Below are positions 35,883-63,240 of a stretch of 64,000 bases of DNA, piece by piece. The stretch comes from Burkholderiales bacterium. GTDB lineage: Bacteria > Pseudomonadota > Gammaproteobacteria > Burkholderiales > SHXO01. The position numbers were made by a program, and so were the translations under genes. The DNA is taken from assembly GCA_020854105.1 (NCBI GenBank), contig JADZGB010000031.1, forward strand, positions 62,001-126,000, in the 5' to 3' direction. Numbering within the stretch: the first letter of the stretch is position 1; the number at the start of each line of letters is the position of its first letter. The notes beneath the pieces are model-generated. The model was not told the origin of the DNA. It saw nothing but the letters and a program-made list of their open reading frames with translations, and did not search any database.

Positions 35883-37015
35883 AGTTCGGTGGAGACCGCG
35901 TCACGCAGCCGCCGGATCAGCGGGCGCTTGGGCCGCTCCGGGGAATGCGAGGCATCGATCGCCTGGGTGATGACGTGATGATGCGGGGAGCGTGAACAGG
36001 CCGGATCGGCGTTCGCCGCATCTCCGGTGAGCAGGAAGGCCTGGCAGCGGCAGCCGCCGAAGTCCTTCTCCTTCTCGCTGCAACTGCGGCAGGGCTCCTT
36101 CATCCATTCGTCGCCGCGGAACTTGCGGAACAGGGGCGAGTCGTTCCAGATCCAGGCCAGGGACTTCTCGCGCACGGTGGGGAATTCCAACCCCTCGATC
36201 ACGCGCACCTCCTGGCAGGGCAGCGCCGCGCCGTCCGGCGCGATGGTCAGGTGGATCGTTCCCCACCCGTTCATGCACGCCTTGGGCCGTCCCTCGTAGT
36301 AGTCGGGGATGACGAAGTAGATCGTCATGCTCTGCCCCAGGCGCTCGCGCGCCGCCTGCACCACGGCTTCCGCGTGCTCGATCTGGGCACGCGAGGGCAG
36401 CAGCTCGTCGCGATTGAGCAGGGCCCAGTTGTAGTACTGGATGTTGGCGAACTCGAGGTAATCCACGCCGATGGACTCGGCCATGGCGAGAATGCGCTCG
36501 ACCTGATCGATGTTCTGCCGGACCACCGGCACGTTGAGCACCATCGGAAAACCGTGGGCCTTGATGCGCGCGGCCACGTCGAGCTTGATGTCGTGCGCGC
36601 GCGCGCCGGTCAGTTCATTGGTGAGTCGCCGGTCGGCCGACTGCAGCGAGAGCTGGATCTGCTTGAGTCCGGCTTCCTTCAGCGCGCGCAGCCGCGTCTC
36701 GGTGAGGCCGATGCCGGAGGTGATGAGATTGGTGTAGAAGCCGAGCGAATCCGCGTATCCGACCAGTTCCTCGAGATCATCGCGCAGCATCGGCTCGCCG
36801 CCGGAGAAGCCCAGTTGCAGGGAGCCCAGCGTACGCGCCTGGCGCAGCACGTCCTTCCACTCCTCGGTGGACAGCTCCTGACTGGTGTAGCGCTGGAAAT
36901 CCAGCGGGTTATTGCACCAGACGCATTTGAGCGGACAGCGGTAGGTCAGCTCCAGTACCAGCCACAGCGGCCGGCCCTGCCCGTCAAGCGCGATCCCGGA
37001 TCCATCCTTTGGCAT
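35879..37015 (-). CDS. pqqE: PqqA peptide cyclase PqqE (radical SAM)
   Basis: A 378-residue radical SAM/SPASM enzyme that cross-links Glu and Tyr side chains of PqqA in the first step of PQQ synthesis. The SAM cluster motif is Cys27-x3-Cys31-x2-Cys34 (RCPLKCVWCNNPLDF), GFSGGEPMLR follows, and the SPASM cysteines are in CMNGWG, PCQEV and CRSCSEKEKDFGGCRC, then DPAC. All hallmark residues of genuine PqqE are present. It overlaps pqqD by 32 nt. pqqB and pqqC are not in the window. Confidence 0.93.
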   Translation of the reverse strand: MPKDGSGIALDGQGRPLWLVLELTYRCPLKCVWCNNPLDFQRYTSQELSTEEWKDVLRQARTLGSLQLGFSGGEPMLRDDLEELVGYADSLGFYTNLITSGIGLTETRLRALKEAGLKQIQLSLQSADRRLTNELTGARAHDIKLDVAARIKAHGFPMVLNVPVVRQNIDQVERILAMAESIGVDYLEFANIQYYNWALLNRDELLPSRAQIEHAEAVVQAARERLGQSMTIYFVIPDYYEGRPKACMNGWGTIHLTIAPDGAALPCQEVRVIEGLEFPTVREKSLAWIWNDSPLFRKFRGDEWMKEPCRSCSEKEKDFGGCRCQAFLLTGDAANADPACSRSPHHHVITQAIDASHSPERPKRPLIRRLRDAVSTEL

Positions 37016-37277
37016 ACGACACCTCGAGAAATTTCTGCACTCCCTGCTCCACCCGCTCGGGCGTTTCCGAGAACAGGGCCCTGAGTTCTTCGGTCAACTC
37101 TCCCACCGTGCGCTGTCCGTCGCAGCGACGCAGGATCTCCGCGGCGGTGGGGTTGAGCTTCACCACGCCCTCCGGATAGAGGAGCACGTAGGCCGCCTGC
37201 GTGTCCTCCCAGCGCAGCAGGAACATCGGCTTGAGCTCCGGACGCCGGGCCGCCTCGATCGATGCGCTCTGATTCAT
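36984..37277 (-). CDS. pqqD: PQQ biosynthesis peptide chaperone PqqD
   Basis: A 97-residue protein that binds PqqA and presents it to PqqE. It shows the PqqD pattern: RPELKPMFLLRWEDTQAAYV, then LLYPEGVVKLNPTAAEILRR and a helical end. The ATG at 37277 has AGGAGA about 8 nt upstream; a start six codons earlier lacks a site. It overlaps pqqE and follows pqqA by 54 nt, without the usual pqqB and pqqC between them. Confidence 0.9.
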   Translation of the reverse strand: MNQSASIEAARRPELKPMFLLRWEDTQAAYVLLYPEGVVKLNPTAAEILRRCDGQRTVGELTEELRALFSETPERVEQGVQKFLEVSYAKGWIRDRA

Positions 37278-37331
37278 GTTCTTCTCCTGTGGCATCCGGG
37301 GGCGCCCGAAGGCACCCCCGGAGCCGTTCGC

Positions 37332-37406
37332 TCAGCGCACGTACACGTAGGCCGTAACTTCGAAGCCCAGACGGATGTCGCAGAACGCGGGGTCGATCCA
37401 CTGCAT
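37332..37406 (-). CDS. pqqA: PQQ precursor peptide PqqA
   Basis: A 24-residue peptide with the PqqA pattern (MQWIDPAFCDIRLGFEVTAY followed by VYVR). The Glu16-x3-Tyr20 pair is the one cross-linked by PqqE and excised to form PQQ. A strong AGGAGG lies about 8 nt before the ATG. It was found by reading the minus strand directly; it is too short for ordinary ORF lists. It heads the operon pqqA-pqqD-pqqE and is likely the most highly expressed member. Confidence 0.9.
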   Translation of the reverse strand: MQWIDPAFCDIRLGFEVTAYVYVR

Positions 37407-37577
37407 GACGTTGCCTCCTGTGTCAGATGGAAGTGGAACGGGCGAGCGCTCGCACACCCTGCGTGGCCGTGGTCCGTGGCCTCGCGCGTCCCGGGAGGCA
37501 CTATGCGCCGAGCGTGCGCAGCGGATGAAGGACAGAATTGCGCGTTGTCGGCTAGTGAAGAGCCGTAACCTGACCTG

Positions 37578-37626
37578 CGCAGATTCATGATTCTGCGGAT
37601 CCGGGCCGATGCGTACGCAGAATCTG
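37578..37626. promoter_or_regulatory. Near-perfect palindrome upstream of pqqA
   Basis: CGCAGATTCATGATTCTGCG at 37578-37597 is a 20-bp palindrome with one mismatched pair. A further CGCAGAATC half-site lies at 37616-37624. It sits about 170 nt upstream of pqqA on the minus strand and 185 nt past the zinc-ribbon gene. I infer an operator for the pqqA promoter; the regulator is unknown. Confidence 0.4.
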
Positions 37627-37689
37627 AAGATGGATCAACGACAGGTTTCGGACATCCCGGCGAAAAGCCGAAAAGCGGGATTCACCCCT

Positions 37690-37802
37690 GCCGTCATTCC
37701 GGCGGAAGCCGGAATCCAGGCAGTAGAACTGCCCTTTCGTTGTTCGCTGGGTCCCGGCTTTCGCCGGGACGGCGGGTCGAGTCGTCACTCCGGCGAAGGC
37801 CG
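37690..37802. repeat. Dispersed palindromic repeat (copy 5)
   Basis: Two back-to-back palindromes (ATTCCGGCGGAAGCCGGAAT and GTCCCGGCTTTCGCCGGGAC) are joined by the TGCCCTTTCGTT linker that is typical of this family. It overlaps the 3' end of the zinc-ribbon gene by 18 bp and fills the gap towards pqqA. Confidence 0.75.
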
Positions 37803-38099
37803 CTCCATCCCCAGCAGCGCGCGCGCCTCTGTCTGCAGCGCGCGGTAGGTCTGCTCGTGCATCCCGGGACGCGGGCTGGTGGTCGCCAGCCGGCGCGCCA
37901 GTGCGAGAAGCCCCTGCATGCGCGCGCGAAGCTCCTCGACTTCCTCCAGCACCCGCGCGTGAACCTCCGCCTCGATCAGCTCGACCTTGCGATCCTGGCA
38001 CACGCCGATGCACGGCTGCGGCGCTTCGATGCGGCCGCAGCCGATGCAGCGCCAGACCTGAACCCGACCGTCGTACTCGTCCGACTGGAGAAGCGTCAT
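37785..38099 (-). CDS. Small zinc-ribbon-like protein with coiled-coil tail
   Basis: A 104-residue soluble protein. Residues ~17-35 hold CIGCGRIEAPQPCIGVC, a four-Cys arrangement that fits a zinc ribbon or rubredoxin-like knuckle. The rest is charged helix (VELIEAEVHARVLEEVEELR). No family name is recognised. The ATG at 38099 is chosen because the longer frame upstream is an arginine-rich artefact. It lies between the pqq operon and the divergent radical SAM gene; its end is within a repeat. Confidence 0.6.
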   Translation of the reverse strand: MTLLQSDEYDGRVQVWRCIGCGRIEAPQPCIGVCQDRKVELIEAEVHARVLEEVEELRARMQGLLALARRLATTSPRPGMHEQTYRALQTEARALLGMERPSPE

Positions 38100-38269
38100 C
38101 GTATGCCTCCGAATGGGCGCTGCAGCACGCACGACGCCCGCATTCTGCTGCCTGCATGCCGCGCGCCATGCGCCCGCCGGGCTCCGGAGCCGCGGGCTGC
38201 GGGTCTGCGGGCCGCAACGCGCCGGCGCCGGCATTGCCGCGACCATGCTGGTGCGCGGATGCCCGGTGC

Positions 38270-38286
38270 CTTAACCCAGGTTCAGG
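38270..38286 (+). promoter_or_regulatory. TTAAC-N5-TTCAG motif upstream of the B12 radical SAM gene
   Basis: CTTAACCCAGGTTCAGG, 72 nt before the radical SAM start. It is the best-conserved copy of a motif also found at 42352, 52453, 59194, 63571 and 63694. It can be read as a 10-bp-spaced direct repeat or an imperfect palindrome. Confidence 0.5.
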
Positions 38287-38357
38287 ATCTGCGCCGCACA
38301 TGTGCGGCAACCTAGTATGCTGCCCGTTCCGGGTGTCCCTGGCGTACCCTCTCTCCC

Positions 38358-40220
38358 ATGCGACTGCTGCTGATCAATCCGCGCTTTCCCGAGAGTTTCT
38401 GGAGCTTCCGCTTCGCCATGGACCGGATCGTCCCCGGCAAGCGCACCCTCAATCCGCCCCTGGGACTAGCCACCCTCGCGGCCCTGTGTCCGCCGCACTG
38501 GGAAGTGACGATCGTGGACGAGAACGTCGAATCGATACCGCTCGATCCGCAGGCGGACCTGATCGGCGTGTGTGGAATGGGGGTGCAGTTTCCGCGCCAG
38601 CGCGAGCTGCTCGGCTACTACCGCGCGCGCGGTTACCGTGTCGTCGCGGGAGGCAGCTATGCCTCCCTCTGTCCAGAGAAGTACGCGGCGCTGGCCGACA
38701 CAACGGTGGCCGGCGAGGCCGAGTACATCTGGCCGGCATTCTGCCGCGATGTCGAGAACGGCACCGCGCAGCCACTGTACCGCGAAACCGGCACGGTGGC
38801 GCTGACCGACTCGCCCACGCCGCGATTCGACCTGCTCAAGCTGCATCTGTACAACACCGCCAGCATGCAGTTCTCGCGCGGCTGCCCTTACATGTGCGAC
38901 TTCTGCGACATCATCGTGATGTTCGGACGACGCCCGCGCACCAAGGATGTCGAACAGATCGGACGCGAACTGGACGCCCTGCGTGCCCAGGGCGCGCGCC
39001 AGGTCTTCTTCGTGGACGACAACCTGATCGGCAACCGCGCCGTGGCCAAGACCCTGCTGCGCTTCCTCGCGCAGTACCAGGCACGGCACCGCTACCGGTT
39101 CAGCTTCGGCACCGAGGCCTCGCTCAACCTGGCACAGGACGAGGAACTGTTGACGCTGATGCGAGGGGCCAATTTCGGCTGGGTGTTCATCGGCATCGAG
39201 ACGCCGGACGAGGCGGCGCTGAAGCTCACCCGCAAGACCCAGAACATGAGCACGGACATCCTCGGCGCCCTGCGCAGGATCTACGCGCACGGCATCGACG
39301 TGCTGGCCGGTTTCATCGTGGGCTTCGACACCGACACGCTGGAGACCTTCGAGCGCCAGCGCAGCTTCATCCTCGAATCGGGCATCCAGGCCGCGATGGT
39401 CGGATTGCTGACGGCGCTCCCTCGCACCCCGCTGTACGAGCGGCTGCAGCGCGAGGGGCGGCTGATCGAGCGCGCCGACGACACCGACAACACACGACCC
39501 GGTACCAACATCGTGCCGCGCAACATGGACTACGATGCCATGGTCGAGGCGTACCAGGATCTGTACCGGTCCCTGCTCACCGACGCCGGCATCGCCCGCC
39601 GCATCCGCAGCAAGATGCGCTGGATGCACGCGCCGGTCTATCGCGGCGAGTACAGCCCGGCGCAGCGCCTGTCGATCCTGGCGCGCCTGCTGGTGCGAGG
39701 CATCCTGCCGGGCGGCCCGTCGCGCTGGCTGGCGTTCCTGTCCACGTTGCCGCGCTCGCCGCGCCAGATCCCATCGGTCGTGTCGGACTGGATCACCGGC
39801 CTGTCGATGCGCGAGTACATCCGCCGCCGCTTCGACGCGACCGGCAGCGTACCCGCGGCGGCGCGACGCAGGATGCGCGGCCTGGTGCGTGCGCTTGCCC
39901 GCTATCGCGACAGCGGCGTGGGGCTGCACGTGGGGGCCGATGCGCGCCACGTCGAGATCTCCCTGAGCGAGCGCGTGGACCAGCGCTTCTTCGTCCGCCT
40001 CGCACCGCGGCTCGAGCGCGTGCTGCGCGACGGCCGTGCCACTCTGGCGCTGCGCGTCGACACGCTGCGTGCCCAGCACGTGCCGGCCCTGCAGGCGATG
40101 CTGGCGCGCATCGCCCGCCACGGCGACCGCGTGTCCATCTCGCTGCCGGAGTCGTGGCGCGGCCGGCTGCAGGTGGACTCCTCGGTATTCCGTCTGGTGC
40201 TCTCGCCTTCGCCGCGCTGA
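38358..40220 (+). CDS. B12-binding-domain radical SAM protein
   Basis: A 620-residue protein. Residues 1-140 form a cobalamin-binding-like domain (MRLLLINPRFPESFWSF, GVCGMGVQF). The radical SAM domain follows with Cys176-x3-Cys180-x2-Cys183 (RGCPYMCDFCD). GIETPDEAALKLTRKTQNM and a DUF4070-type C-terminal domain come next, then ~120 residues rich in Arg with no match I know. Such enzymes often methylate or rearrange lipids or cofactors. The gene is monocistronic on the plus strand and carries the nir-associated motif at its promoter, so it may serve anaerobic metabolism (inference). Confidence 0.82.
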   Translation: MRLLLINPRFPESFWSFRFAMDRIVPGKRTLNPPLGLATLAALCPPHWEVTIVDENVESIPLDPQADLIGVCGMGVQFPRQRELLGYYRARGYRVVAGGSYASLCPEKYAALADTTVAGEAEYIWPAFCRDVENGTAQPLYRETGTVALTDSPTPRFDLLKLHLYNTASMQFSRGCPYMCDFCDIIVMFGRRPRTKDVEQIGRELDALRAQGARQVFFVDDNLIGNRAVAKTLLRFLAQYQARHRYRFSFGTEASLNLAQDEELLTLMRGANFGWVFIGIETPDEAALKLTRKTQNMSTDILGALRRIYAHGIDVLAGFIVGFDTDTLETFERQRSFILESGIQAAMVGLLTALPRTPLYERLQREGRLIERADDTDNTRPGTNIVPRNMDYDAMVEAYQDLYRSLLTDAGIARRIRSKMRWMHAPVYRGEYSPAQRLSILARLLVRGILPGGPSRWLAFLSTLPRSPRQIPSVVSDWITGLSMREYIRRRFDATGSVPAAARRRMRGLVRALARYRDSGVGLHVGADARHVEISLSERVDQRFFVRLAPRLERVLRDGRATLALRVDTLRAQHVPALQAMLARIARHGDRVSISLPESWRGRLQVDSSVFRLVLSPSPR

Positions 40221-40242: not shown

Positions 40243-42096
40243 CTACGCCGCCGGCGGCGCCGTCACCACGAAGGCATCGGAGAAGCATGCATCCTCGGGC
40301 AGCCCCTGCGCAATGAATGCCGGACGGGCGGTCCCCACCATCTGCACCGAACCACAGGTGTAGATCTCGAAGCCCGACAGATCGGGATGATCCTGCAGGA
40401 TCGCCTCGTGCACGAGGCCGGTGCGCCCGGTCCATGCATCGCCGGGAAGCGGTTCCGACAGTACCGGGATGAAATGGAAGCCGGGATGCTCGCGCGTCCA
40501 GGCCTCGACCTGCGCGCGCTCGTAGAGATCCTCGGCGTGACGCACGCCCCAGTACAGCATCATGGGACGCTGGATGCCGCTGCGGAACGCCTCCTCTAGC
40601 ATGCTCTTGACCGGTGCGAAGCCGGTCGAACCGGCGACGAAGATCAGCGGCGTGCTGCCATCGCGCAACTGGAACGCACCCAGCGGTCCCTCGATCAACA
40701 GGCGGTCGCCCGGGCGCATCGACTCGAACACATGGGTGGTGAAGCGCCCGCCCGGCACCAGGCGCACGTGCATCTCGATCTGATCGCGGCCGGACGGCGC
40801 CGTGGCGAACGAGAACGCGCGCCGCGCGCCGTCCTCGAGCACGACGTTGAAGTACTGCCCCGCACGGTAGTCGATGCGGGCACCCTCGGGCAGCCGCAGA
40901 TGGATGATCATGACGTCGGGCGCGGCGCGATGCATGGAACCGACCACCGTCTCCCAGGTCTGTATCGCACCGCGCGCCGCCCCGGCGCCCAGCTCGTACT
41001 CGACCTCCACGTCGGTGACCGGCGTGCACACGCACAGCAGGGCGCGACCCAGCCGGCGTTCCTCGTCCGACAGCACGCTCTTCTGATACGCGGCGTGCCG
41101 CACCTCGCCCTGCAGGATCGTGCCCTTGCACACGCCGCAACCGCCGTTGCGGCAATCGAAGAGCATGGGAATCCCGGCACGCAGCCCAGCCTCCAGGATG
41201 GTCTCGTCGGTGCGCACCGGCACCTCCCGGTTGCCCGGATGCACCGTCATGCGCACGCCCTTGTCCGCGCGTCGCGGCGGCAGCCACGGCAGCAGGACCA
41301 GCAGCGCGGTCGTGCCGGCGAGGAGCATCCAGACGCCCTCGCGCGACCACGCGTACATCAGCGGCAGGGTGGCGAGCAGGTACCAGTCCAGGCGCAGCGG
41401 CGGCGCCACCGCGGACAGGTCGGCCGGCGCATGGCTGGTCACGGGCAGCGCCACCGACAGTGCAATCATGGTCGCCAGCAGCGGCAGCGCGATGGCGCGC
41501 GGCGGATTGGTGGCGGCACGCGGCACGCGCTGGATGTGGATCCACAGGAACAGCAGCAGCGTGAGCGGCACTCCGACGTGGATGAAGGCGAGCAGCGAGA
41601 ACAGACGATCGTTGACGCTGTCCTGGTAGATGAAGTTGCGCACCAGCACCCCACCGAACAGCGGCACCCAGTCGAGGAACTCGGCGGTTGCGACGACCAC
41701 GAACTGCGCCAGTTCGTCCCAGGGCAGCATGTAGCCGTTGATGCCGGAGATGTAGGTGAGCCAGAGCAGGCTCACGCCGCTGATCCAGGAGAACCAGCGG
41801 AAGCCGCGATGGCGGTCGAAGCAGAAGTGACGCGACATGTGCAGCAGCATGGTGACCACCATGCCGTCCGAGGCGTAGCGGTGCAGGCCGCGCATCACCA
41901 TGCCCAGTCCCAGGTGGCCGTGGGTGATCCGCTCCACCGACTGGTACGCGCCGCTCACGCCGGTATCGAAGAAGACGTAGAGGTAGATGCCGGTCGCCGC
42001 GACGATCCAGAACAGGAAAAAGGCGATCTCGCCAAGGCGGTAGAAGGGATTGAGGCGATCGCCGAAGGCGGCGTTGAACCACCTCTCGACGCGCAT
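40243..42096 (-). CDS. Cytochrome b / [2Fe-2S] ferredoxin / FAD-NAD reductase fusion
   Basis: A 617-residue, three-part protein. Residues 1-270 form a PetB-like cytochrome b with four heme histidines spaced 14 apart in pairs (His72/His86 and His173/His187). Residues ~282-365 form a plant-type ferredoxin (CRNGGCGVCKG with Cys315, 320, 323, then Cys355). Residues ~375-617 form a ferredoxin-NADP reductase-like module (RRAFSFATAP, GSTGFAPVKSMLEE, YTCGSVQMV). It could move electrons between NAD(P)H and quinone. The start is uncertain: ATG 42096 matches the domain edge; GTG 42135 and ATG 42222 are in frame but lie upstream of or across a terminator hairpin. Confidence 0.85.
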   Translation of the reverse strand: MRVERWFNAAFGDRLNPFYRLGEIAFFLFWIVAATGIYLYVFFDTGVSGAYQSVERITHGHLGLGMVMRGLHRYASDGMVVTMLLHMSRHFCFDRHRGFRWFSWISGVSLLWLTYISGINGYMLPWDELAQFVVVATAEFLDWVPLFGGVLVRNFIYQDSVNDRLFSLLAFIHVGVPLTLLLFLWIHIQRVPRAATNPPRAIALPLLATMIALSVALPVTSHAPADLSAVAPPLRLDWYLLATLPLMYAWSREGVWMLLAGTTALLVLLPWLPPRRADKGVRMTVHPGNREVPVRTDETILEAGLRAGIPMLFDCRNGGCGVCKGTILQGEVRHAAYQKSVLSDEERRLGRALLCVCTPVTDVEVEYELGAGAARGAIQTWETVVGSMHRAAPDVMIIHLRLPEGARIDYRAGQYFNVVLEDGARRAFSFATAPSGRDQIEMHVRLVPGGRFTTHVFESMRPGDRLLIEGPLGAFQLRDGSTPLIFVAGSTGFAPVKSMLEEAFRSGIQRPMMLYWGVRHAEDLYERAQVEAWTREHPGFHFIPVLSEPLPGDAWTGRTGLVHEAILQDHPDLSGFEIYTCGSVQMVGTARPAFIAQGLPEDACFSDAFVVTAPPAA

Positions 42097-42146
42097 GAAG
42101 CAGGCCTGTCCGGCCGCCTGTAGTCGCTGCAGCACCGCTTCCGTCC

Positions 42147-42184
42147 AAAGAAAAAAAAACGGGCCGGGCAGGATGCCCGGCCCG
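42147..42184 (-). terminator. Intrinsic terminator or attenuator, minus strand
   Basis: A perfect 11-bp stem (CGGGCCGGGCA at 42159-42169, TGCCCGGCCCG at 42173-42183) with a 3-nt loop is followed on the minus strand by eight consecutive U residues. It lies 51 nt before the cytochrome b fusion start, so it either ends the upstream transcript or attenuates the fusion gene. Confidence 0.85.
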
Positions 42185-42351
42185 TGGAGAACTCCGCAAC
42201 CAGCCGCCAGGAACGGAGGCATCGCCCTGTCCGCAGGTCGATGGGGAATTCAGGCGACCGTCATCGGCGACGGAGAGTCACACACAGGAGCCGCGCAATC
42301 AGCCAACGCCCCCTGTGTCTGCGAATCTACGCACCATCGACCCGCTTCGCC

Positions 42352-54128: not shown

Positions 54129-55445
54129 TCAGCTCAGCCGCTTCCAGCGCGCGCTGTCGGCATCGGCGCGCAGCGGCGGGCTCTGGGCCAGGCGGGCACG
54201 CGCGAACAGCGCCGCGCGGATCAACCTCACGCCGAGCAGCGCGCTGGAGACCACGAACACTGCGGCGCCCGCGTACACCAGGACGTTCCACACGCTCGCG
54301 GCGAGGGCAAGCAGCACGAGCGCAGCGGCGTGTGTCCAGAACTGCCGGATGCCGGCGGTCTCGGGCATGATCTCCTTGACCGTGGGCGGGCGTGCGCCGC
54401 TGCGCATCTGCAGTGCGAGCCACAACAGGAACGGCACGATCTTGTACAGCATGCCGGCAATCACGCAGAAGGCGAATCCTGGCAGCATCAGAACGCCGAT
54501 CAGCAGCACCCAGGCCTGGGAGGTCTGCAGCGCCAGCGCCTGGCCGGCCGACCAGGTCAGCACGGCTGCGATCAGGCACAGCATCCCCAGGCGCCAGAAC
54601 AGGAAGGTCGCGTCCGGCTGCAGCCGCCGCCGACCACGCTGCTGCAGCCGCAGCGTGACCAGCGCGAACGTCGCTGCCGCAGCCGCGAGCAGCCACTGCA
54701 GCGGCTCGCGCAGGTCCTGCCATCCGAACCACCGCGCCAAGCTCCACAGCAGCAGTGCCGCCAGCATGGCGGCGGCGAAGCGGCCCTGCAGCCAGCCAGG
54801 ATAGCCGACCGTCATCTGGAACATCGGCACCACCGCCAGTGCCGCTCCGAGCACCAGCAGCATCGTCCAGCCAAGCAGGCCCCAGGTGGCGTGCACATCG
54901 GTCAGCTCGAGGAGCGGCAGCGCTACGCCACTCATGCCCGTGGCGAGCAGCAGCCCGAGCGAGACGGTCACCAGCAGCCCCAGCAGTGCCGCGGCGACCA
55001 CGCGCGCGAGCGGGTCGCGCAGACGCTGGCGTGCGATGCCCGCGCCGATTGCCGTCAGATAGACGGCGAAGGCGAGGCCCAGCAGCAGCGCGGCGACCGT
55101 GAACAGCACCGGCCTTCCCGTGACGAATGCGGCGGCGAGGCAGGCAGCCCCGGCCGCGAGCGCGGGATGCGATATCGCGGCCACCACGCCGGTGCGCGGC
55201 AGCGGGACCCCGAAGGCGACCGGCAGCAGCTGCAGCAGTGCGCCCAGCATGGCGTTGCCCATGAAGCCCAAGGTGAGCAGATGCGTCGTGGCCAGCACCG
55301 CCCCGGTCCAGCGCGAGGCCAGCGCCTGCGGTCCGGCCCACAGCAGCAGCACGCCCGCGGCGACCGCGAACCACGGCGCGGAGAGCAGGAAGCGCAGCGG
55401 AACGGCGGCCGCGGGTGCGCGGTGAATCGACAGGGCGGAGGCCAT
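54129..55445 (-). CDS. Uncharacterised polytopic membrane protein of the denitrification cluster
   Basis: A 438-residue protein with about twelve TM helices. A conserved-looking segment (LATTHLLTLGFMGNAMLGAL, then LQLLPVAFG) has a His in TM2, a second His lies in LELTDVHATWGLLGWTM, and a Pro-rich KIVPFLLWLALQ follows later. The layout recalls heme-copper-oxidase or NnrS-like proteins, but catalytic His groups are not complete. It starts 4 nt after the DUF2249 gene, so it belongs to the oxidase-like operon. I do not recognise it. Confidence 0.65.
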   Translation of the reverse strand: MASALSIHRAPAAAVPLRFLLSAPWFAVAAGVLLLWAGPQALASRWTGAVLATTHLLTLGFMGNAMLGALLQLLPVAFGVPLPRTGVVAAISHPALAAGAACLAAAFVTGRPVLFTVAALLLGLAFAVYLTAIGAGIARQRLRDPLARVVAAALLGLLVTVSLGLLLATGMSGVALPLLELTDVHATWGLLGWTMLLVLGAALAVVPMFQMTVGYPGWLQGRFAAAMLAALLLWSLARWFGWQDLREPLQWLLAAAAATFALVTLRLQQRGRRRLQPDATFLFWRLGMLCLIAAVLTWSAGQALALQTSQAWVLLIGVLMLPGFAFCVIAGMLYKIVPFLLWLALQMRSGARPPTVKEIMPETAGIRQFWTHAAALVLLALAASVWNVLVYAGAAVFVVSSALLGVRLIRAALFARARLAQSPPLRADADSARWKRLS

Positions 55446-55449
55446 CGCG

Positions 55450-55668
55450 CTACCTGGCGATCAGGATCTCGAAGAACCCCTCGGGATCGAAGCCGTGGCG
55501 GTAGGACCAGCCCTCGCGTTCGAGCCACTGGAACAGCGGACGCGGCAGGCGATGGATGAGCACGCGCAGTGTCGCGCCCTGCGGCAGTGTCTCGAGTGCG
55601 GCGACCACGCGCTCGAACGGCTCGGGCGGCTCCAGCCAGCGCACGTCGATGTCGATGCGCTCGCTCAT
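55450..55668 (-). CDS. DUF2249 small protein
   Basis: A 72-residue protein with the DUF2249 pattern (IDVRWLEPPEPFERVVAALE, LRVLIHRLPRPLFQWLEREG, GFFEILIAR), a TusA-like small alpha/beta fold common near nitrogen-oxide genes. Its ATG at 55668 overlaps the upstream oxidase-like stop (ATGA). The function is unknown; sulfur-carrier or NO-related roles have been suggested for the fold, without evidence here. Confidence 0.78.
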   Translation of the reverse strand: MSERIDIDVRWLEPPEPFERVVAALETLPQGATLRVLIHRLPRPLFQWLEREGWSYRHGFDPEGFFEILIAR

Positions 55669-57086
55669 CGCACCCTCTGCCCTGCGCGGCGCATGCTGCC
55701 GGCGATCACCACCACGAACAGCACGCCTCCGACGATCGCGATCGCACCCCCCAGTCCCATCAGTCCCATTCCCGCCACCTGCTCCAGTCGGTCGAGCACC
55801 TGTTCGGATCCGGCGACCTTGCGCTGCACCCCGTATCCGCCGGACCACACCAGACCGGCGATGTGCATCAGCTGCCCGATCCCGTACACGTAAGGCTGCC
55901 ACAAGGCGAGCCGTGCATTGGGGGCGCCGTAGCCCAGGCGCGGCATCAGTTCGTAGGCCACTCCCATGAACGCAAGGGTGATGCCGACGATACAGCCGTG
56001 ATAGTGCGCCGGGATCTTGACGTTGGCCCCGCTGATGGCGAAGCCGATCAGCCCGCCAGCGCAGAACAGCACCAGCGACATCACCAGCGCCGCGCGCAGC
56101 GCACGCCGCTGCGGATCGAGCGGACCGGTGCCGCGCAGGCCCGCGATCAGTGCCAGCGCCAGCGGCGGGATGGCCATGCCGCCGCCAACGCGCATCATCC
56201 AGGTGAGCATGCGCCGGTGCTCGACCGACGTCACGTCCCATGCCAGATACACCAGCGGCGTGGCCAGCACCACCACCAGAGACAGGCCGAACAGTACCAG
56301 CACCACGCGCGGGCCGATGGGCAGGCGCGCGCCGATCGCATCGGCGAGCCACAGCCAGGCCACCAGCATCAGCACGGTCCAGGTGAACTGCAGCACGTGG
56401 CCACCACCCCAGAACAGCACCTCGTAGTAGGTACGCGGATCGACCGCCGCGGGCAGCGCCAGCCAGGACCACAGGAAGGCGAACAATGCCACTCCCGTGG
56501 CAAATGCCGCAGCCACCAGGCCCAGCCGAAGCGCGCCGGCACCGTCGATTCGCGCGTGGGTGCTGGCGCCGAGTACGGCACGCGCAATCACCAGCGCCAC
56601 GCCGGCGGCAAGCGCGATCAGGCCACCCAGGAACACCGGTCCGTCGAGGACCGGCACGTAGTTGGCCATGACAGGCCGGGCGCGCTCGACGAAGGGCGAT
56701 ACGCACAGCGCTGCCGTGCCGGCCGCGCACAGCGCCAGGCCGGCCCTTCCCAGCGTCGGCACGCGTGTGCCGCTGGCGAGACTCCAGAACACTCCGCCGA
56801 AGGCCACGAACCACACGAGCACCGAGAGATCGACGTGCACCACCAGCGCCACCCGGAAGAAATCACTGACCGGAAACAGGTGCTGCAGATACGGGGTGCG
56901 GGCCAGCACCAGCAGGATGGAGAAGACGCCCGACAGCGCGATTGCCGCCATGCCCAGCAGCATCCAGGCGCGCGCCAGCGAACGCGGCAGCCCGGCGGCA
57001 ACGGGCAGGCGATAGTGCTCAGGTGCGGCCCCGGTGCGCGCGGGTGCGCGCACATGCGCCGGAACGGCGAGGTGAGCGGGCTTCAT
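55665..57086 (-). CDS. Divergent heme-copper oxidase subunit I-like protein, candidate NO reductase
   Basis: A 473-residue, twelve-TM protein. Expected ligands are His84 (VVHVDLSV) and His361/His363 (PAHYHGCIVG) for hemes and His230 (FWGGGHVLQF) for the copper/iron site. The usual tyrosine after His230 is absent (Gln233, Phe234), and the His-His pair of TM7 reads Glu289-His290 (TSVEHRRM). These changes argue against oxygen reduction as in A-type oxidases and fit nitric oxide reductase-like members of the superfamily (inference). It overlaps DUF2249 and follows the Ig-like protein by 3 nt without a subunit II gene. Confidence 0.75.
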   Translation of the reverse strand: MKPAHLAVPAHVRAPARTGAAPEHYRLPVAAGLPRSLARAWMLLGMAAIALSGVFSILLVLARTPYLQHLFPVSDFFRVALVVHVDLSVLVWFVAFGGVFWSLASGTRVPTLGRAGLALCAAGTAALCVSPFVERARPVMANYVPVLDGPVFLGGLIALAAGVALVIARAVLGASTHARIDGAGALRLGLVAAAFATGVALFAFLWSWLALPAAVDPRTYYEVLFWGGGHVLQFTWTVLMLVAWLWLADAIGARLPIGPRVVLVLFGLSLVVVLATPLVYLAWDVTSVEHRRMLTWMMRVGGGMAIPPLALALIAGLRGTGPLDPQRRALRAALVMSLVLFCAGGLIGFAISGANVKIPAHYHGCIVGITLAFMGVAYELMPRLGYGAPNARLALWQPYVYGIGQLMHIAGLVWSGGYGVQRKVAGSEQVLDRLEQVAGMGLMGLGGAIAIVGGVLFVVVIAGSMRRAGQRVR

Positions 57087-57589
57087 CGGTACAGGATGCC
57101 TCCCCTGGCAGGATCGAAATCGACGACCAGGATGCGTCCCGGATCGAGGCGCACGGTTTCATCGCGCACGTGATTGAAGCCCTGCACCCGCTCGCTGTCG
57201 TCGATGCGTACCGTCAGGCGATGCTCGCCGGCGGGCACGGGAAAGCGCGCGTAGTAGGTGGACGGTCCATCCCTGGCGATTCCGGCCGGCGCCACGGTCT
57301 CGCGGGCGAGCATGGCACCGTCCAGGCTCAGCTCCACCGTCAGGGGGGAGCGCTCGCGCGGACAGTCCATCTCCTGGCGCATGTTCGGCGCCATGCGCTG
57401 CAGTTCCTCTGCCGAGCGCCGCCGGCATTCGCTGCGCAGCTGGCCGGGCTGCGAGAAACTCAGCTTGAGCAGCGCCTGATCCTCCGCCAGATGCCGGTAG
57501 ACCGGCGCAGTCGAGAAGATGCCGATCACGGCAGCGAATGCCACATACAGGACGGCCTGCATCAGCAGGGCCACGGGCCGGCTAGCCAT
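57083..57589 (-). CDS. Single-TM periplasmic protein of the oxidase-like operon
   Basis: A 168-residue protein with an N-terminal membrane anchor (LLMQAVLYVAFAAVIGIFST) and a beta-rich periplasmic part (STYYARFPVPAGEHRLTVRI) that could be an Ig-like domain. A CRRRSAEELQ/MDCPRERS pair of Cys lies mid-protein. It has no family name I know. It overlaps the cytochrome b fusion stop by 8 nt and the heme-copper gene start by 4 nt, so it may be an accessory subunit of one of them. Confidence 0.65.
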   Translation of the reverse strand: MASRPVALLMQAVLYVAFAAVIGIFSTAPVYRHLAEDQALLKLSFSQPGQLRSECRRRSAEELQRMAPNMRQEMDCPRERSPLTVELSLDGAMLARETVAPAGIARDGPSTYYARFPVPAGEHRLTVRIDDSERVQGFNHVRDETVRLDPGRILVVDFDPARGGILYR

Positions 57590-59159
57590 GAACCACCTCC
57601 TCTGCCGCGGACGCGTGGCTGCGCCGCGTGCGCAGAGCCTCGACCGCGCGCCGCAGATCCGCAGCCTCGTGGGGTGCGCAGGCGACGACGCGCATCTGCT
57701 CACGCGGCACGCGTGCGCGCAGGTACGGCTCACGCAAGCCATCCAGGCGCTGCTGCGTCCAGCGCCCGCCCAGACGATAGGCGCACCCGTCCTCGGGGCA
57801 GGTGGCCACCACCACGCCGTGCGCGCCGTTGCGCAGCGCGAACTCCACGAACGATGGCGGCATCTGCCCGGCACACATGAACGTCAGCGCCGCAGTGTCG
57901 GGGCTGCGCAGGGCCTCGACCTCGACGCTGTTGCTGCAGCCCAATACCACGATGCGCGCCGGACCGGACAGGCGTGCCAGTTCGCTCTGCAATGTCTCGC
58001 GCAGCGCGCCGATGCGCTGCTGCGGCATGTCGATTCCGGTCACCAGTTCTCTCACGCTGCGAAACGGGGTCGACGACGGGCATGCACCGGCGCAGATCCC
58101 GCAGGCCGTGCACAGCGCCGGATCCACCACTGCCAGTTCGGCACCGATGCGCGCGTCCGGATGCGGATGCATGGTGATCGCCCCGTGCGGGCAGTCCTCG
58201 AAGCAGCGCCGGCAGCCGTTGCAGTTGGCCGGATCCACCCTCGCCACAGCGGGGCGGTGTGCGCGGCCCAGGAGTGGACAGGCAGCCAGCGCGAGCGTCA
58301 GCACCGTCGCGACCGCCCACAGTGCCCCTGGCGAGGTCTCGTACATGAGCGCGTGCGGGGCAAGGTAGAACCAGTCGAGCGCCAGCGCGGGCTCCGCCCG
58401 CATGGCATCCGCGGGACCGGCGCTGGTGACGGGCGCGAACAGCGACAGGACCAGCAGGGCCGCCAGGGTGCCGGCCCCGAGCGCACGTGCGGGCACCGTC
58501 TCCGGCCGGCTCAGCCGCTTGATGTGCACCCACATCCCGAGCAGCAGCAGCAGGGGCAGGCCGATGTGGAGGAACACGAACAGCGAGAACAGCCGATCGT
58601 CCACGCTCTCCGGCGTGAGGAAGTTGCGCGCCAGCGACACCCCGAACACCCCGGCTGCATCCAGCCATTCCATCGTGGCCACCGCACTGAACAGCGCCAG
58701 CTGATCCCATACCAGCCAATAGCCGACCACCCCGCTGCCCAGGGCCAGCCACACCAGCGGCACGCCGCTGATCCAGGTGAACCAGCGCGCACCCGCATAG
58801 CGGCCGCGCACGAACTCGCACCCCACGTGCAGCAGAATCACGGCGGCGAACGCGGCCGAGGCGTAGCGGTGCAGGCTGCGCATCAGCCCGCCGGCCCAGG
58901 GCTGTTCCGTCGACAGCGCCTGCACCGATTGCCACGCACCCGCGACGCTGGTGTCGAACACGACGTACAGGTAGACGCCGCTCACCACGACGATCCAGAA
59001 CAGGTGGAAACCGAGTGCGCCGAGATGGCGCCAGGGATTGGCATGCGCGCCGAAACAGCGGTCGAACGCGGCTTCGACGCGTGCGAGCACGCCGGCCGCG
59101 CCCGGGAACGGGTACGCAAGCACACCGGGGGACCGAGCCCGTCTGGCCGTCGCGAACAT
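57582..59159 (-). CDS. Cytochrome b / 2[4Fe-4S] ferredoxin / FlpD-MvhD-like fusion
   Basis: A 525-residue, three-part protein. The N-terminal ~250 residues are a PetB-like cytochrome b with paired heme histidines (RSLHRYASAAF / ILLHVGCEF and FLHIGLPLL / WVHIKRL). A double ferredoxin follows (CNGCRRCFEDCPHG, CTACGICAGACPSS). The C-terminal ~140 residues match the FlpD/MvhD iron-sulfur family (VLGCSNSVEVEALR, TFMCAGQMPPSFVEFALRNG, VVVATCPEDGCAYRLGGRW), which couples flavin or hydrogenase electrons in Hdr complexes. I infer a membrane quinone link to a soluble low-potential donor. Its cytochrome b part is homologous to that at 40243-42096. Confidence 0.83.
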   Translation of the reverse strand: MFATARRARSPGVLAYPFPGAAGVLARVEAAFDRCFGAHANPWRHLGALGFHLFWIVVVSGVYLYVVFDTSVAGAWQSVQALSTEQPWAGGLMRSLHRYASAAFAAVILLHVGCEFVRGRYAGARWFTWISGVPLVWLALGSGVVGYWLVWDQLALFSAVATMEWLDAAGVFGVSLARNFLTPESVDDRLFSLFVFLHIGLPLLLLLGMWVHIKRLSRPETVPARALGAGTLAALLVLSLFAPVTSAGPADAMRAEPALALDWFYLAPHALMYETSPGALWAVATVLTLALAACPLLGRAHRPAVARVDPANCNGCRRCFEDCPHGAITMHPHPDARIGAELAVVDPALCTACGICAGACPSSTPFRSVRELVTGIDMPQQRIGALRETLQSELARLSGPARIVVLGCSNSVEVEALRSPDTAALTFMCAGQMPPSFVEFALRNGAHGVVVATCPEDGCAYRLGGRWTQQRLDGLREPYLRARVPREQMRVVACAPHEAADLRRAVEALRTRRSHASAAEEVVHG

Positions 59160-59193
59160 GCCCTGATGCTACGTGCGCCCTGGGCGCGGTGAA

Positions 59194-59208
59194 TTAACCT
59201 GCGTTCAG
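59194..59208 (-). promoter_or_regulatory. TTAAC-N5-TTCAG motif upstream of the cytochrome b/FlpD fusion
   Basis: TTAACCTGCGTTCAG on the plus strand, 35 nt before the ATG at 59159 and overlapping the SCO stop codon. Its position near the start suggests the fusion gene has its own promoter inside the minus-strand cluster. Confidence 0.5.
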
Positions 59209-60044
59209 CGAAGCGCGCCCGCGCGCCTGCGCTGGGCCACGAACAGGGCCAGCGCCACGATGCCGGTGACGCCGCCGGCCAGCTCCAGGATGATGGCGTA
59301 CTTGAAGCGGTATTCGCCGCTGACCGGATCGTAATAGGTGCACAGGATGCGGATGCGCTCGAGCAGCCCGATGGCGTCGACCGGTTCGGCGCGCTCGCCG
59401 CGCAGCGCCAGTTCGAGCGCATCGGTGAGTGCGGACAGGGCGAACCCGTCGCCGTAGACCTGCGCCACCACCACGCCGCTGCCATCGATCACGCTCACCT
59501 GCGTGAGGTGGTCGAACCCGCCCGTCACCGGCACGTAGCGGAAGCCCAGTTCGTCGGCGAGCGCACGCAGCGTGTCCGGGTCCGGGCTGAGGAAGTGCCA
59601 GTTGGGCAAGTGGATGCCCTGCTGACGCCCGAACGCGCCCATCGCCTCGGGACCGTCGAACGGCAGGTTGAAGCCGATGGTCACCACGTTGAACGCGTCG
59701 GTGCCCAGCGCGCCCATGGCGGAATTGACGGCGCGCGCGAGCGTGCGCGTGGTGGTCGGACACACCTGGAAGCAGCCGGTGTAGACGAAGGACACCAGCA
59801 GCGGTTTGCCGCGCAGATCGGCCAGGCGCAGGCTGCCGCCCCGTCCATCACGCAGGCGGTGATCGCCCAATGCGTTGCCGATGGCCCCCTGGCTGGCGCG
59901 CAGGGCCTCGGCCTGGTCCAGGCGCTGCACCGCAGCCTGCACCGGCTCCGCATCCGGCGTGTCGGCACCGTGCGCGAGCGCCGCGAGGCCCCCACACAGC
60001 AGCGCGATGCACGCGCGCAGGAGCCCCCGGCGCTTGCCGCTCAC
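59205..60044 (-). CDS. SCO1/SenC-family copper chaperone
   Basis: A 279-residue membrane-anchored thioredoxin-fold protein that delivers copper to CuA. Copper ligands are in TGCFQVCPTTT (CxxxC) and the later His in GGFDHLTQVSV. A signal/anchor at the N-terminus and a C-terminal TM (LAGGVTGIVALALFVAQ) are predicted. The GTG at 60044 is taken as the start, 1 nt after the ctaB stop. It presumably loads the CuA site of the adjacent subunit II. Confidence 0.87.
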   Translation of the reverse strand: MSGKRRGLLRACIALLCGGLAALAHGADTPDAEPVQAAVQRLDQAEALRASQGAIGNALGDHRLRDGRGGSLRLADLRGKPLLVSFVYTGCFQVCPTTTRTLARAVNSAMGALGTDAFNVVTIGFNLPFDGPEAMGAFGRQQGIHLPNWHFLSPDPDTLRALADELGFRYVPVTGGFDHLTQVSVIDGSGVVVAQVYGDGFALSALTDALELALRGERAEPVDAIGLLERIRILCTYYDPVSGEYRFKYAIILELAGGVTGIVALALFVAQRRRAGALR

Positions 60045-60045
60045 C

Positions 60046-60960
60046 TCACCACCACGTGCCGTCGATGATGGCACCCAGCAGCAGCAGGCTGAGCTGGGTG
60101 AGGGAGGCATGGAATGCCGCCATCGCCCGCTGCGGCCCCGGCTCGCGCAGCAGTGCCCAGCAGCGGCGCAGCAGCAGGATGCCGCCCGCCACCGCGGCGG
60201 CCAGGTAGATCGCGCCCAGGCCGAAGAACACCGGCGCCACGGAGAGTGCGACCAGCGCCACTGCGTGGGCGAAGATCGCCTGCGACGCGCGCGCGCTGCC
60301 CACCACCACCGGCAGCATCGGCACGCGGGCGGCTTCGTAGTCCTTGCGGAACGCGATCGCGAGGCTCCAGAAGTGCGGCGGTGTCCACAGGAACAGGATC
60401 ACCGCCAGGATGGCGGGGACCGCACCGATGTGCGGATCCACCGCGGCGGCGCCGGCAAGTACCGCAGAACTGCCGGCCAGCCCGCCGATCACGATGTTCA
60501 TCCACGTCCGGCGCTTGAGCCAGACCGTGTACACCACCGCATAGATGAACGCGCCCAGGAAGGTGTAGAGCGCCGACCAGCCATTGAGCGCCCACCAGGC
60601 GGCGACGGTGGACGCCGCCACCAGGCCGAGGATCACGCCCAGCCAGGCGCGCGAGTGCGGCAGTTCGCCGGTGACGAAGGCACGTCGCTGCGTGCGCTTC
60701 ATGCGCGCGTCGACGTCGCGCTCGACGTACTGGTTGAAGGCACCGGCGCTGGCGGAGGACAGGAACACCGCCAGCCCGAGCACGACCACCTGCCACGCGC
60801 TGAGCGCCGGACCGCTCGCCACGGCCCAGCCCGCCAGGGCGGTGAATGCGATCACCGCCCCGATGCGCAGCTTGAACAGGCCAAGCACGACACGCGCGCG
60901 ATGCGCCCATCCCGCTGCGCGGACCTCCCCGACGGCTGTGATGCTGCTCATCGCACTCAC
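60046..60960 (-). CDS. ctaB: Protoheme IX farnesyltransferase (heme O synthase)
   Basis: A 304-residue, nine-TM UbiA-type prenyltransferase. The Asp-rich motif is NQYVERDVDARMKRTQRR and the second loop has YTVWLKRRTWMNIVIGG; LWTPPHFWSLAIAFRKDYE is conserved in heme O synthases. It makes heme O from protoheme and farnesyl diphosphate. With ctaA at the window end it indicates heme A or O is needed for the adjacent oxidase-like complex. ATG 60951 is an alternative start. Confidence 0.92.
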   Translation of the reverse strand: MSAMSSITAVGEVRAAGWAHRARVVLGLFKLRIGAVIAFTALAGWAVASGPALSAWQVVVLGLAVFLSSASAGAFNQYVERDVDARMKRTQRRAFVTGELPHSRAWLGVILGLVAASTVAAWWALNGWSALYTFLGAFIYAVVYTVWLKRRTWMNIVIGGLAGSSAVLAGAAAVDPHIGAVPAILAVILFLWTPPHFWSLAIAFRKDYEAARVPMLPVVVGSARASQAIFAHAVALVALSVAPVFFGLGAIYLAAAVAGGILLLRRCWALLREPGPQRAMAAFHASLTQLSLLLLGAIIDGTWW

Positions 60961-60977: not shown

Positions 60978-62681
60978 TCAGTTGATGCCCCACACCGACC
61001 CGAGGTACTTCCAGTTGATGAAGTAGTACAGGACGAACGCCCCGAGGAACACCAGCGCCAGGGTGAAGGTGCCGCGCGCTTCCAGCAGCCCCGCTCCGCC
61101 GCCGTGGCCCTCGATCGCCTCGGCCACGGGCAGACGCAGCGGCGTGGGCTTGGGCTGACGCTGGCCCTCGTCCAGGCGCTTGCCGAACAGGATCGACCAC
61201 ACCGTCACGAGGATGTACATGCCGCCGCCGATGAAGGCGATCACCGCGAACACGCCCATCAGGGTCATCATCAGGTATGCCGCGCCCGGGAACTCGTACG
61301 GCAGGGGCATGCCCGAGAAGCCGATGTCCCAGTGCCGCCGCGGCACGCCGAGGGTACCCGCGCCCATCAGCGTGAGCGCGAGACCGTACATGCCGATGCT
61401 GAACACGTAGGGCTGCCACTGCGCAATCTTGTAGAACGACACGTCGCGGCTGAACAGGCTGGGGATCAGGAAGTAGGTCAGCCCCATGAACGCCAGCGTG
61501 GTGCCGATCACGACCGTTGCGTGGAAGTGCCCGGGCACGTAGATGGTGTTGTGGATGAGCATGTTGAGCTGCTCGGTACCCATCATTACGCCGGAGATGC
61601 CGCCCAGGAAGCCGAAGCCGATGATCGACAGGAAGATCGACGAGAACACCGGATTGCTCCACGGCGCCTTGCGCAGCCACTCGTACAGGCCGCGCGTGTA
61701 GCCCTTCTTGCGCTGCGCCACTTCCATCGCGCCGGGCACGGTCAGTCCGTGCAGCATGCTCGCCAGCACCGCGAAGTACATGAAGTAGCTGGTGTTGAGA
61801 ATCTTCCACTCGGACGACAGCCCGGGGTCGGACAGCAGATGGTGCGCGCTGGCCAGCTGCAGGAACAGGATGTAGAGCAGGAAGGCCGTGCGGCTCACCT
61901 TCTCGGACATGGGCTTGGCCCCGAACACGATGGCGCCCACCGCGTACCACACCGAGATGTGAGCGGCGACGTTGACCTGCTGCGAGGAGTGGCCCAGGCC
62001 CCACCAGATCACCCGGTACATCAGCGGATCGATGTGCTGGATGTAGCCGATCGACCAGAGGAAGGTCGGGATCAGGATGATGGCGCCGGAGGCGATGGTG
62101 AAGATGGCGATGATGGCGGCCGTCAGCGCACCGAAGGTCACCAGCGGCACCGAGCCCTCGTAGGTCTTCTCGGCCTTGGCGACGACCAGCGTCCCGAGGA
62201 AGATGAAACAGGCGATCAGCCCGCCCACGGCGAACAGGATCAGGCCCAGGTAGAAGGCCGGATGGGCCTGCATCGGCGTGTAGGAGGTCATCATCACGCT
62301 CGACTGGCCCTGGAAGATCGCGACGTTGGTGGTGATCGCCCCGATCACCATCAGCGCGAAGGCGAGCCAGGCCCAGCGCGGCGTCGCCAGCCGTGATCGG
62401 AGCAGCGTCGAGGAGCAGAAGTACAGAATCGCGACCTCGAAGAACAGCAGCCAGAAGATCAGCATGTCGAGGCCGTGGGCGGTGAGCACCATGTAGAAGC
62501 GCTCGGCATCGAGAATGTGCAGACCCGGCACGCGGGTGAGCGAGACCAGCAGGGCGAGAATGCCGCCGAGCAGCAGGAACACCACGCCGGCAACGGCGTT
62601 GACCTTGATCAGGGTCTCCGCCTGCTTGTGGTACTGGAGGCCGGAGCGCGGGTCGATCCGGAACGAGTCAGTCATGGCCAT
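60978..62681 (-). CDS. Heme-copper oxidase subunit I-like protein lacking the active-site Tyr (eNOR-like candidate)
   Basis: A 567-residue, about 14-TM protein. Ligands are His69 (LTAHGLDM), His231 (WGLGHSSQQVN), His280-His281 (ASAHHLL), and His385/His387 (VPGHFHATV). The position normally held by the cross-linked Tyr (four after His231) is Gln235. Oxygen reductases need that Tyr, and Gln there is a feature reported for NO-reducing members of the superfamily called eNOR. The CuA subunit II is encoded 19 nt upstream. Oxygen reduction by another mechanism is not excluded. SCO and ctaB follow directly. Confidence 0.8.
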   Translation of the reverse strand: MAMTDSFRIDPRSGLQYHKQAETLIKVNAVAGVVFLLLGGILALLVSLTRVPGLHILDAERFYMVLTAHGLDMLIFWLLFFEVAILYFCSSTLLRSRLATPRWAWLAFALMVIGAITTNVAIFQGQSSVMMTSYTPMQAHPAFYLGLILFAVGGLIACFIFLGTLVVAKAEKTYEGSVPLVTFGALTAAIIAIFTIASGAIILIPTFLWSIGYIQHIDPLMYRVIWWGLGHSSQQVNVAAHISVWYAVGAIVFGAKPMSEKVSRTAFLLYILFLQLASAHHLLSDPGLSSEWKILNTSYFMYFAVLASMLHGLTVPGAMEVAQRKKGYTRGLYEWLRKAPWSNPVFSSIFLSIIGFGFLGGISGVMMGTEQLNMLIHNTIYVPGHFHATVVIGTTLAFMGLTYFLIPSLFSRDVSFYKIAQWQPYVFSIGMYGLALTLMGAGTLGVPRRHWDIGFSGMPLPYEFPGAAYLMMTLMGVFAVIAFIGGGMYILVTVWSILFGKRLDEGQRQPKPTPLRLPVAEAIEGHGGGAGLLEARGTFTLALVFLGAFVLYYFINWKYLGSVWGIN

Positions 62682-62700: not shown

Positions 62701-63240
62701 TTACTTGACGTACATGCGGCTCACCATCTGGTGATGGCCGATGCCGCAGTACTCGTTGCAAACGATCGCGAACGATCCGGTCTTGTTCGGCGTGATGGTC
62801 ACCACCATCTCGTAGTCCGGCACGACCTGCAGGTTGATGTTTTCGGGCTGGAGCGAGAAGCCGTGCTGGTAGTCCATTGCCGAGAGGTGCAGCCGGTAGG
62901 TCTTGTCCTTCTCCAGCTCGAGGATGGGCCACCACTGCCACAGACGGGCGATCAGGTAGACGTCGCTGCCCGCGGGCGGCTGCACCACCGGGATGTTCAG
63001 CTCGGTCTCGGTGCGCACGGTGTACTTGTCCACCATCTCCTGCGTCTTCTGCTGGAATTGCGCGGCGGAGATGCGGTAGGCCTCGTTGGACAGGTTCTGT
63101 TTCCCGAACACGTGCCAGTACGGCATCATGAAGAACAGCACCAGCGCCCAGAGGAAGGCGATTACGATCCACCATACCTCGAGCTTCTCGACCGGCTCCT
63201 TCCACCAGATGCGTTTCGCGGGCGGCAGTATCGAACTCAT
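62701..63240 (-). CDS. CuA-containing subunit II of the heme-copper complex
   Basis: A 179-residue protein with one N-terminal TM helix (EVWWIVIAFLWALVLFFMMP) and a periplasmic cupredoxin domain. The CuA site is complete: a His in MDYQHGFSLQP and CNEYCGIGHHQM near the C-terminus. It takes electrons from a cytochrome c and passes them to subunit I. GGAG precedes the ATG. It is the B-type short form with a single TM, and it lies between the small subunit and subunit I. Confidence 0.9.
   Translation of the reverse strand: MSSILPPAKRIWWKEPVEKLEVWWIVIAFLWALVLFFMMPYWHVFGKQNLSNEAYRISAAQFQQKTQEMVDKYTVRTETELNIPVVQPPAGSDVYLIARLWQWWPILELEKDKTYRLHLSAMDYQHGFSLQPENINLQVVPDYEMVVTITPNKTGSFAIVCNEYCGIGHHQMVSRMYVK

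Follow-up and report, generated by a model that had tools for sequence, protein, structure and literature searches.

The window analysed here (the whole stretch of DNA, 64,000 nucleotides, from a Burkholderiales bacterium) encodes a protein in which a membrane cytochrome b is joined to two ferredoxin motifs and an FlpD/MvhD domain (CytB-2xFer4-FlpD, hereafter CytB-FlpD), and the question raised by this locus is which electron donor and which acceptor such a fusion would connect. A preliminary description of the DNA had proposed a direct membrane link from a low-potential soluble donor to quinone or to NO/nitrite reduction, in the setting of a nir cluster. The architecture as such is common in databases.

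Domain anatomy and cofactor ligands of CytB-FlpD

The proposed fusion of a cytochrome b, a double ferredoxin and FlpD was confirmed as a single open reading frame with exactly the coordinates initially given, on the minus strand (Table 1). The Pfam search of the 525-residue product returned Cytochrome_B (residues 39-215, E-value 2.6e-18), two Fer4 stretches (within residues 305-363, 2.6e-11) and FlpD (residues 420-509, 1.7e-11, 44.6 bits versus a cut-off of 22.3), in that order and all above the curated cut-offs. The FlpD assignment of the C-terminal part was further upheld by the match of its family profile to solved MvhD chains (9sw2_D, 3.2e-15; 5odc_D, 2.7e-12). The AlphaFold model, for which 46 homologues were used as input, has a mean pLDDT of 90. 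An overlapping plus-strand frame (57519-59192) was considered as a gene and rejected as an antisense GC-rich frame, since both the homologues and the coding GC3/GC2 pattern fall on the minus frame.

The four heme ligands expected of the cytochrome b part are H97/H111 and H198/H212, located on helices B and D and kept across 80 homologues; their spacing of 14 within each helix is the bc1 pattern. The [4Fe-4S] ligands are C313/316/319/323 and C350/353/356/360, and the FlpD domain contributes C408/429/454/459; in the same 80 homologues each of the four heme His and 12 Fe-S Cys is either invariant or conserved to at least 95%. One MvhD Cys of a CxxC motif is replaced in this FlpD domain and four conserved Cys remain, presumably as ligands of a [2Fe-2S] cluster. 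The cytochrome b module has six transmembrane helices (A-F), and VIA-align superimposes it on bc1 cytochrome b with Z of 20-24 over about 255 residues, the fold being complete through helix F; these alignment rows are limited to the cytochrome b part and are thus uninformative on FlpD. By homology to cytochrome b, both termini are predicted to be cytosolic, which would place the Fe-S wire in the cytosol, adjoining heme bH.

Table 1. Coordinates in the window of CytB-FlpD, its modules, its paralogue and the genes of its operon
Feature	Position	Strand	Basis and remarks
CytB-2xFer4-FlpD gene	57582..59159	minus	525 aa; ORF, Pfam domains, AlphaFold model
bc1/b6-type cytochrome b module, residues 24-302	58254..59090	minus	VIA-align, own-genome bc1 alignment, conservation
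Two [4Fe-4S] ferredoxin motifs, residues 305-363	58071..58247	minus	Fer4 matches, eight invariant Cys
FlpD/MvhD domain, residues 403-517	57609..57953	minus	Pfam FlpD and MvhD chain matches
eNOR subunit II, CuA motif (C161, E163, C165, H169, M172, H126)	62701..63240	minus	CoxB-like, conserved motif
eNOR subunit I, heme-copper superfamily	60978..62681	minus	Pfam COX1 1.9e-64
Heme O synthase CtaB/CyoE	60046..60960	minus	TIGR01473 4e-77, above cut-off
SCO1/SenC copper chaperone	59205..60110	minus	Pfam SCO1-SenC 7e-10; true start may be later
Small one-TM protein, periplasmic beta domain, invariant C56/C77	57083..57592	minus	Found in 78/79 loci
COX1-like membrane protein, second divergent heme-copper member	55665..57086	minus	Pfam COX1 7.9e-11
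CytB-FNR paralogue, 659 aa (cytochrome b, Fer2, FAD_binding_6, NAD_binding_1)	40243..42222	minus	Pfam

The eNOR operon and the company of CytB-FlpD

CytB-FlpD is the fifth gene of an operon in the order eNOR II, eNOR I, CtaB, SCO, CytB-FlpD, small one-TM protein and COX1-like protein. The intergenic gaps are short or none; the small protein starts before CytB-FlpD has ended, and COX1-like starts before the small protein has. A promoter/terminator scan gave no signal above chance. The eNOR enzymes, a recently recognised type of NO reductase and a source of the greenhouse gas N2O, are told from heme-copper oxidases by a Gln that replaces the active-site Tyr (PMC8756737). In subunit I of this operon Gln235 occupies the position of the cross-linked Tyr in an alignment with ba3 oxidase and is invariant in 62 sequences, while the His-His pair and the heme His are kept; together with the CuA motif of subunit II, this identifies the predicted products of the neighbouring genes as an eNOR-type nitric oxide reductase.

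The small one-TM protein gave no Pfam match beyond chance in 42 homologues, no PDB fold with E < 1e-3 in a fold search and no FixH match in profile scans. In one genome (G215) it is fused to the C-terminus of CytB-FlpD as a single 682-aa protein (locus L128, 4887-6935). In the same locus a gene for heme A synthase (CtaA, 7016-8095) lies between this fusion and COX1-like, an insertion which suggests heme A use by eNOR. The COX1-like protein has conserved H84, H230, H361, H363 and H408. It thus keeps the heme ligands H84, H361 and H363 as well as H230, has His-Arg at the His-His position of oxidases and bears a Gln three residues past H230; its gene is absent from most alphaproteobacterial eNOR operons. 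On its 3' side are a small DUF2249/TusA-like protein (55450-55671; a similar frame also comes after COX1-like in locus L023, 14497-14709) and, adjoining the operon, a 438-aa hydrophobic protein (54129-55445) with no Pfam or NCBIfam match, relatives of which are found in three further eNOR loci.

The nir-cluster setting was correct, in that nirS, nirF, nirD-L, nirG/H, nirJ and nirN do adjoin the eNOR operon, but it left out the eNOR genes, which are the immediate neighbours of CytB-FlpD. A cytochrome P460 gene (43151-43672) lies beside the nir genes, and two ferredoxin-type proteins, NapG/NapH-like and one of them with a Fer4_5 membrane domain, are encoded beside NnrS (29294-30801). Judging from position and sequence impression, the genes at 18-26 kb of the window may be assigned as narGHJI.

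To assess how far this association extends beyond a single genome, the census of CytB-FlpD relatives covered Pseudomonadota. At least 505 relatives are present in public genomes, and the best 80, from beta-, gamma- and alphaproteobacteria, were fetched with their surroundings; being the closest relatives, they are expected to be biased towards similar operons. Among these 80, eNOR I was upstream in all 58 loci whose upstream DNA extended beyond 6.5 kb, and the small one-TM protein was present in 78 of 79 loci. The 45 full-length loci of the same set invariably contained eNOR I, eNOR II, SCO and the small protein (45/45 each), most of them also COX1-like (40), CtaB (36) and an FNR part (36). 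On the other hand, only nine of these 45 had nirS inside the 20 kb that were fetched (versus eNOR in all). A membrane link to NO/nitrite reduction, as initially suggested, is therefore backed on the side of NO, by the operon and by co-occurrence, with nitrite taking a secondary place.

Three genome samples drawn independently of the CytB-FlpD gene, from the class (229 genomes), the phylum (299) and the order (220), gave the same picture. In the class sample eNOR was present in 19 genomes and CytB-FlpD in 20, with an overlap of 19; that is, CytB-FlpD accompanied eNOR in 19/19 genomes versus 1/210 of the others (Fisher 8e-27, uncorrected for shared ancestry). The corresponding numbers in the phylum sample were 29, 33 and 28; in the one missing case the contig breaks off immediately after SCO. 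Within the order, all 17 eNOR genomes had at least one cytochrome b fusion (FlpD in 15, FNR in 16). Since our genome belongs to all three samples, these amount to 63 distinct eNOR genomes, of which 62 carry CytB-FlpD or CytB-FNR, the exception being the contig end already mentioned. The carriers of CytB-FlpD without eNOR, eight in all (G273, G395, G411, G419, G497, G547, G655 and G670), are each less than 90% complete or more than 5% contaminated. The two genes also co-occur when located on separate contigs, as in two alphaproteobacteria (G324 and G314), in the former of which the pair of CytB-FlpD and small protein lies beside nirS. A plasmid of Defluviimonas sp. SAOS-178_SWC (L131, 9948-16487) carries a compact cassette of eNOR II, eNOR I, cyoE, SCO, CytB-FlpD, small protein and hemerythrin. 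In its annotation eNOR I figures as a subunit of cbb3 oxidase, likely an instance of systematic misannotation. As databases label the subunit 'cbb3-type cytochrome c oxidase', CytB-FlpD may serve as a marker that separates eNOR operons from those of oxidases.

A paralogue in the window, CytB-FNR (Table 1), shares one eNOR operon with CytB-FlpD in relatives, and in Ca. Accumulibacter contiguus (L076) both fusions stand in tandem. Each version can also be found without the other: in the order sample the FlpD version stands alone in one genome (G014) and the FNR version in two (G025 and G605), so that the two tails look like exchangeable donor modules. An apparent 1157-aa CytB-FNR 'fusion' in G025 was discarded as a read-through of an upstream frame and not a true larger protein. 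Beside the CytB-FNR gene of the window (35879-40220) are genes for a PqqD-like protein, a SPASM radical-SAM protein and a B12-binding radical-SAM protein. Four loci of another family (L121-L124, from G473, G410, G497 and G547) have tandem duplicates of CytB-FlpD with all ligands in both copies, an arrangement suggestive of a heterodimer; the eNOR found in two of these genomes (G410 and G473) is divergent (about 50% identical).

Overall, the co-inheritance in one operon is a functional linkage of CytB-FlpD and eNOR and no proof of mechanism, and by genome association CytB-FlpD ranks as an obligate component of the nitric oxide reductase unit of eNOR. Given this near-constant company, it probably supplies electrons specifically for N2O formation by eNOR, or assists this process in another way.

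Possible functions of CytB-FlpD

The explanation that we tentatively favour is that CytB-FlpD and its small partner form a transmembrane conduit to eNOR, most likely as its dedicated donor, and that CytB-FNR plays an equivalent part with NAD(P)H as the source of electrons. A cytosolic low-potential donor would reduce the [2Fe-2S] cluster of FlpD and then the two [4Fe-4S] centres, after which electrons would move by way of heme bH and heme bL to the periplasmic face, where they could serve eNOR, which has its CuA entry on this side. In this scheme the cofactor occupancy, the source and destination of the electrons and the direction in which they move are inferred; in its role CytB-FlpD would resemble NosR, the proposed donor of NosZ. 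The arguments for such a conduit are the operon, the co-occurrence, the fusion with the small partner, the lack of the normal FlpD partners (see below), the topology deduced by homology and the NosR precedent. On the other hand, eNOR has a CuA subunit and eNOR-bearing genomes also carry bc1, so that eNOR could take its electrons from cytochrome c; the tight linkage with SCO and heme synthase fits maturation as well; and a conserved D-W at a Qo-like position hints at quinone instead. A more far-reaching version of the conduit, in which a membrane assembly of eNOR, the small partner and one or both of CytB-FlpD and CytB-FNR would reduce NO straight from cytosolic ferredoxin or NAD(P)H, through a Rieske-free bc1-like cytochrome b with exchangeable donor modules that bypasses both the quinone pool and bc1, appears, when taken as a whole, possible but rather doubtful.

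A somewhat less probable alternative is a maturation reductase that passes electrons outward to reduce Cu(II), Fe(III) or the thiols of SCO or CuA during eNOR assembly, and the sequence data appear compatible with both supply and maturation. The CytB-FlpD gene is directly 3' of those for SCO and heme O synthase, CtaA is near the operon genes in some loci, and two Cys on the periplasmic side of the small partner are invariant, all of which would suit a role in assembly. However, many genomes without eNOR should possess ordinary CuA oxidases, and CytB-FlpD is missing from nearly all sampled genomes of this kind, which makes a generic copper role unlikely; moreover, maturation would hardly need two versions with different donors. 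The precedents point both ways. CcoG, with two [4Fe-4S] clusters, reduces Cu(II) for the assembly of cbb3 oxidase (PMC7558416), and CrpH of Bordetella, a membrane heme protein overlapping in function with ccoG, has been suggested to support heme-copper oxidoreductases (PMC13038864). In contrast, NosR, the nearest analogue by role, which is a transmembrane protein with two cytoplasmic [4Fe-4S] and a proposed electron donor to NosZ, is dispensable for the assembly of the copper centre (PMC7660919).

The link to quinone that was also part of the initial proposal would make the protein a ferredoxin- or NAD(P)H:quinone oxidoreductase, delivering cytosolic electrons to p-side quinone and feeding eNOR indirectly via bc1, which we consider unlikely. 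Its attraction lies in a cytochrome b fold that is complete through helix F and in D262-W263, invariant or nearly so, which homologues and the own-genome bc1 alignment place at the PEWY position on the p-side, in a Qo-like ef-loop. But the same alignment reveals a deletion of the n-side Qi segment relative to bc1 cytochrome b, a general quinone reductase need not track eNOR so strictly, and electrons moved outward to p-side quinone dissipate the proton motive force.

The reverse process, a quinol-driven reduction of ferredoxin or NAD(P)+ by Q-cycle-type bifurcation with NO reduction as the high-potential branch, akin to an idea put forward for a novel cytochrome b/b6 fusion of Accumulibacter, is less probable still. 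That fusion may be the protein of the present analysis. A p-side quinone site combined with an n-side Fe-S wire would be the right anatomy for it, and the tandem of both fusions in Ca. Accumulibacter contiguus would speak for such chemistry, as would the passing mention of a novel cytochrome as a source of anaerobic reducing power in the Accumulibacter lineage (PMC2289847). Quinol-driven NAD(P)+ reduction is thermodynamically unfavourable at cytochrome c potentials: the branch from bH to NAD(P)+ runs uphill and against the membrane potential, unpaid by an acceptor at the level of cytochrome c. In addition, none of the neighbouring operon genes in the window encodes a Rieske protein. Finally, the classical FlpD role, in which a soluble hydrogenase or dehydrogenase/heterodisulfide reductase would be linked to the membrane, is very improbable despite the FlpD domain and a Fer4-Fer4-FlpD order like that of the HdrA2 tail, because our genome (4.07 Mb, 100% complete) encodes neither a [NiFe] hydrogenase nor an HdrA that scores above the curated cut-off, and profile search gave no second FlpD domain in it; on this gene content the hydrogenase/Hdr link was rejected, and with it the usual soluble partners of FlpD as donors.

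The literature searched, with subscription literature mostly outside the search, yielded no description of this architecture with a known function (one study lists its domains only, PMC8756737), of CytB-FlpD as a partner of eNOR, or of the supply of electrons and metals to eNOR in vivo. Membrane redox proteins devoted to a single terminal reductase are a known kind, of which the pairing of CytB-FlpD with eNOR may be a new case. Being an accessory in nearly every sampled eNOR genome, CytB-FlpD offers a direct genetic handle on the supply of electrons or metals to this enzyme.

Comparison with known redox systems

The C-terminal domain of CytB-FlpD matches MvhD/FlpD over its length and keeps four MvhD Cys positions. 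MvhD itself is soluble and acts as a connector to HdrA (PMC12350162), whereas the domain described here is attached to a membrane cytochrome b, and the genome that encodes it has no HdrA. The Fer4-Fer4-FlpD order is shared with the tail of HdrA2 (NCBIfam NF040770, positions 568-771, 2.5e-21); the FAD-bearing body of HdrA2 is absent, a cytochrome b standing in its place, and the score (76 bits) is far below the 1100-bit cut-off. Likewise, CytB-FlpD scores 89 bits against the 290-bit cut-off of NF040969 for ExtP, the cytochrome b of a selenite/tellurite operon. The same three modules plus an extra cytochrome c domain are present in a Chloroflexi protein (RME88945.1), which figures in an appendix table as cytochrome c, cytochrome b6, ferredoxin and FlpD, with domains listed and no function (PMC8756737).

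NosR and CcoG resemble CytB-FlpD in being membrane proteins with a cytoplasmic 2x[4Fe-4S] unit that serve a single terminal reductase, next to which they are encoded. This likeness is by role only: no sequence relation was seen, the Pfam scan of CytB-FlpD gave no match to Fer4_5, the membrane ferredoxin domain of CcoG and NosR, and CytB-FlpD has instead a bc1-type diheme cytochrome b and FlpD. With bc1/b6f cytochrome b it has in common the fold of helices A-F, the four heme His and the PEWY-like position, but it is devoid of helices G-H and of the Qi segment, has no Rieske protein or cytochrome c1 in its operon and adds an n-side Fe-S wire. CytB-FNR, encoded in the same operons, has a cytochrome b part of the same subfamily (47% identity) but carries in place of Fer4-FlpD a reductase tail that binds [2Fe-2S], FAD and NAD(P). 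The pair presents a bc1-type cytochrome b that has given up its Qi site in exchange for an Fe-S wire and can bear either of two tails.
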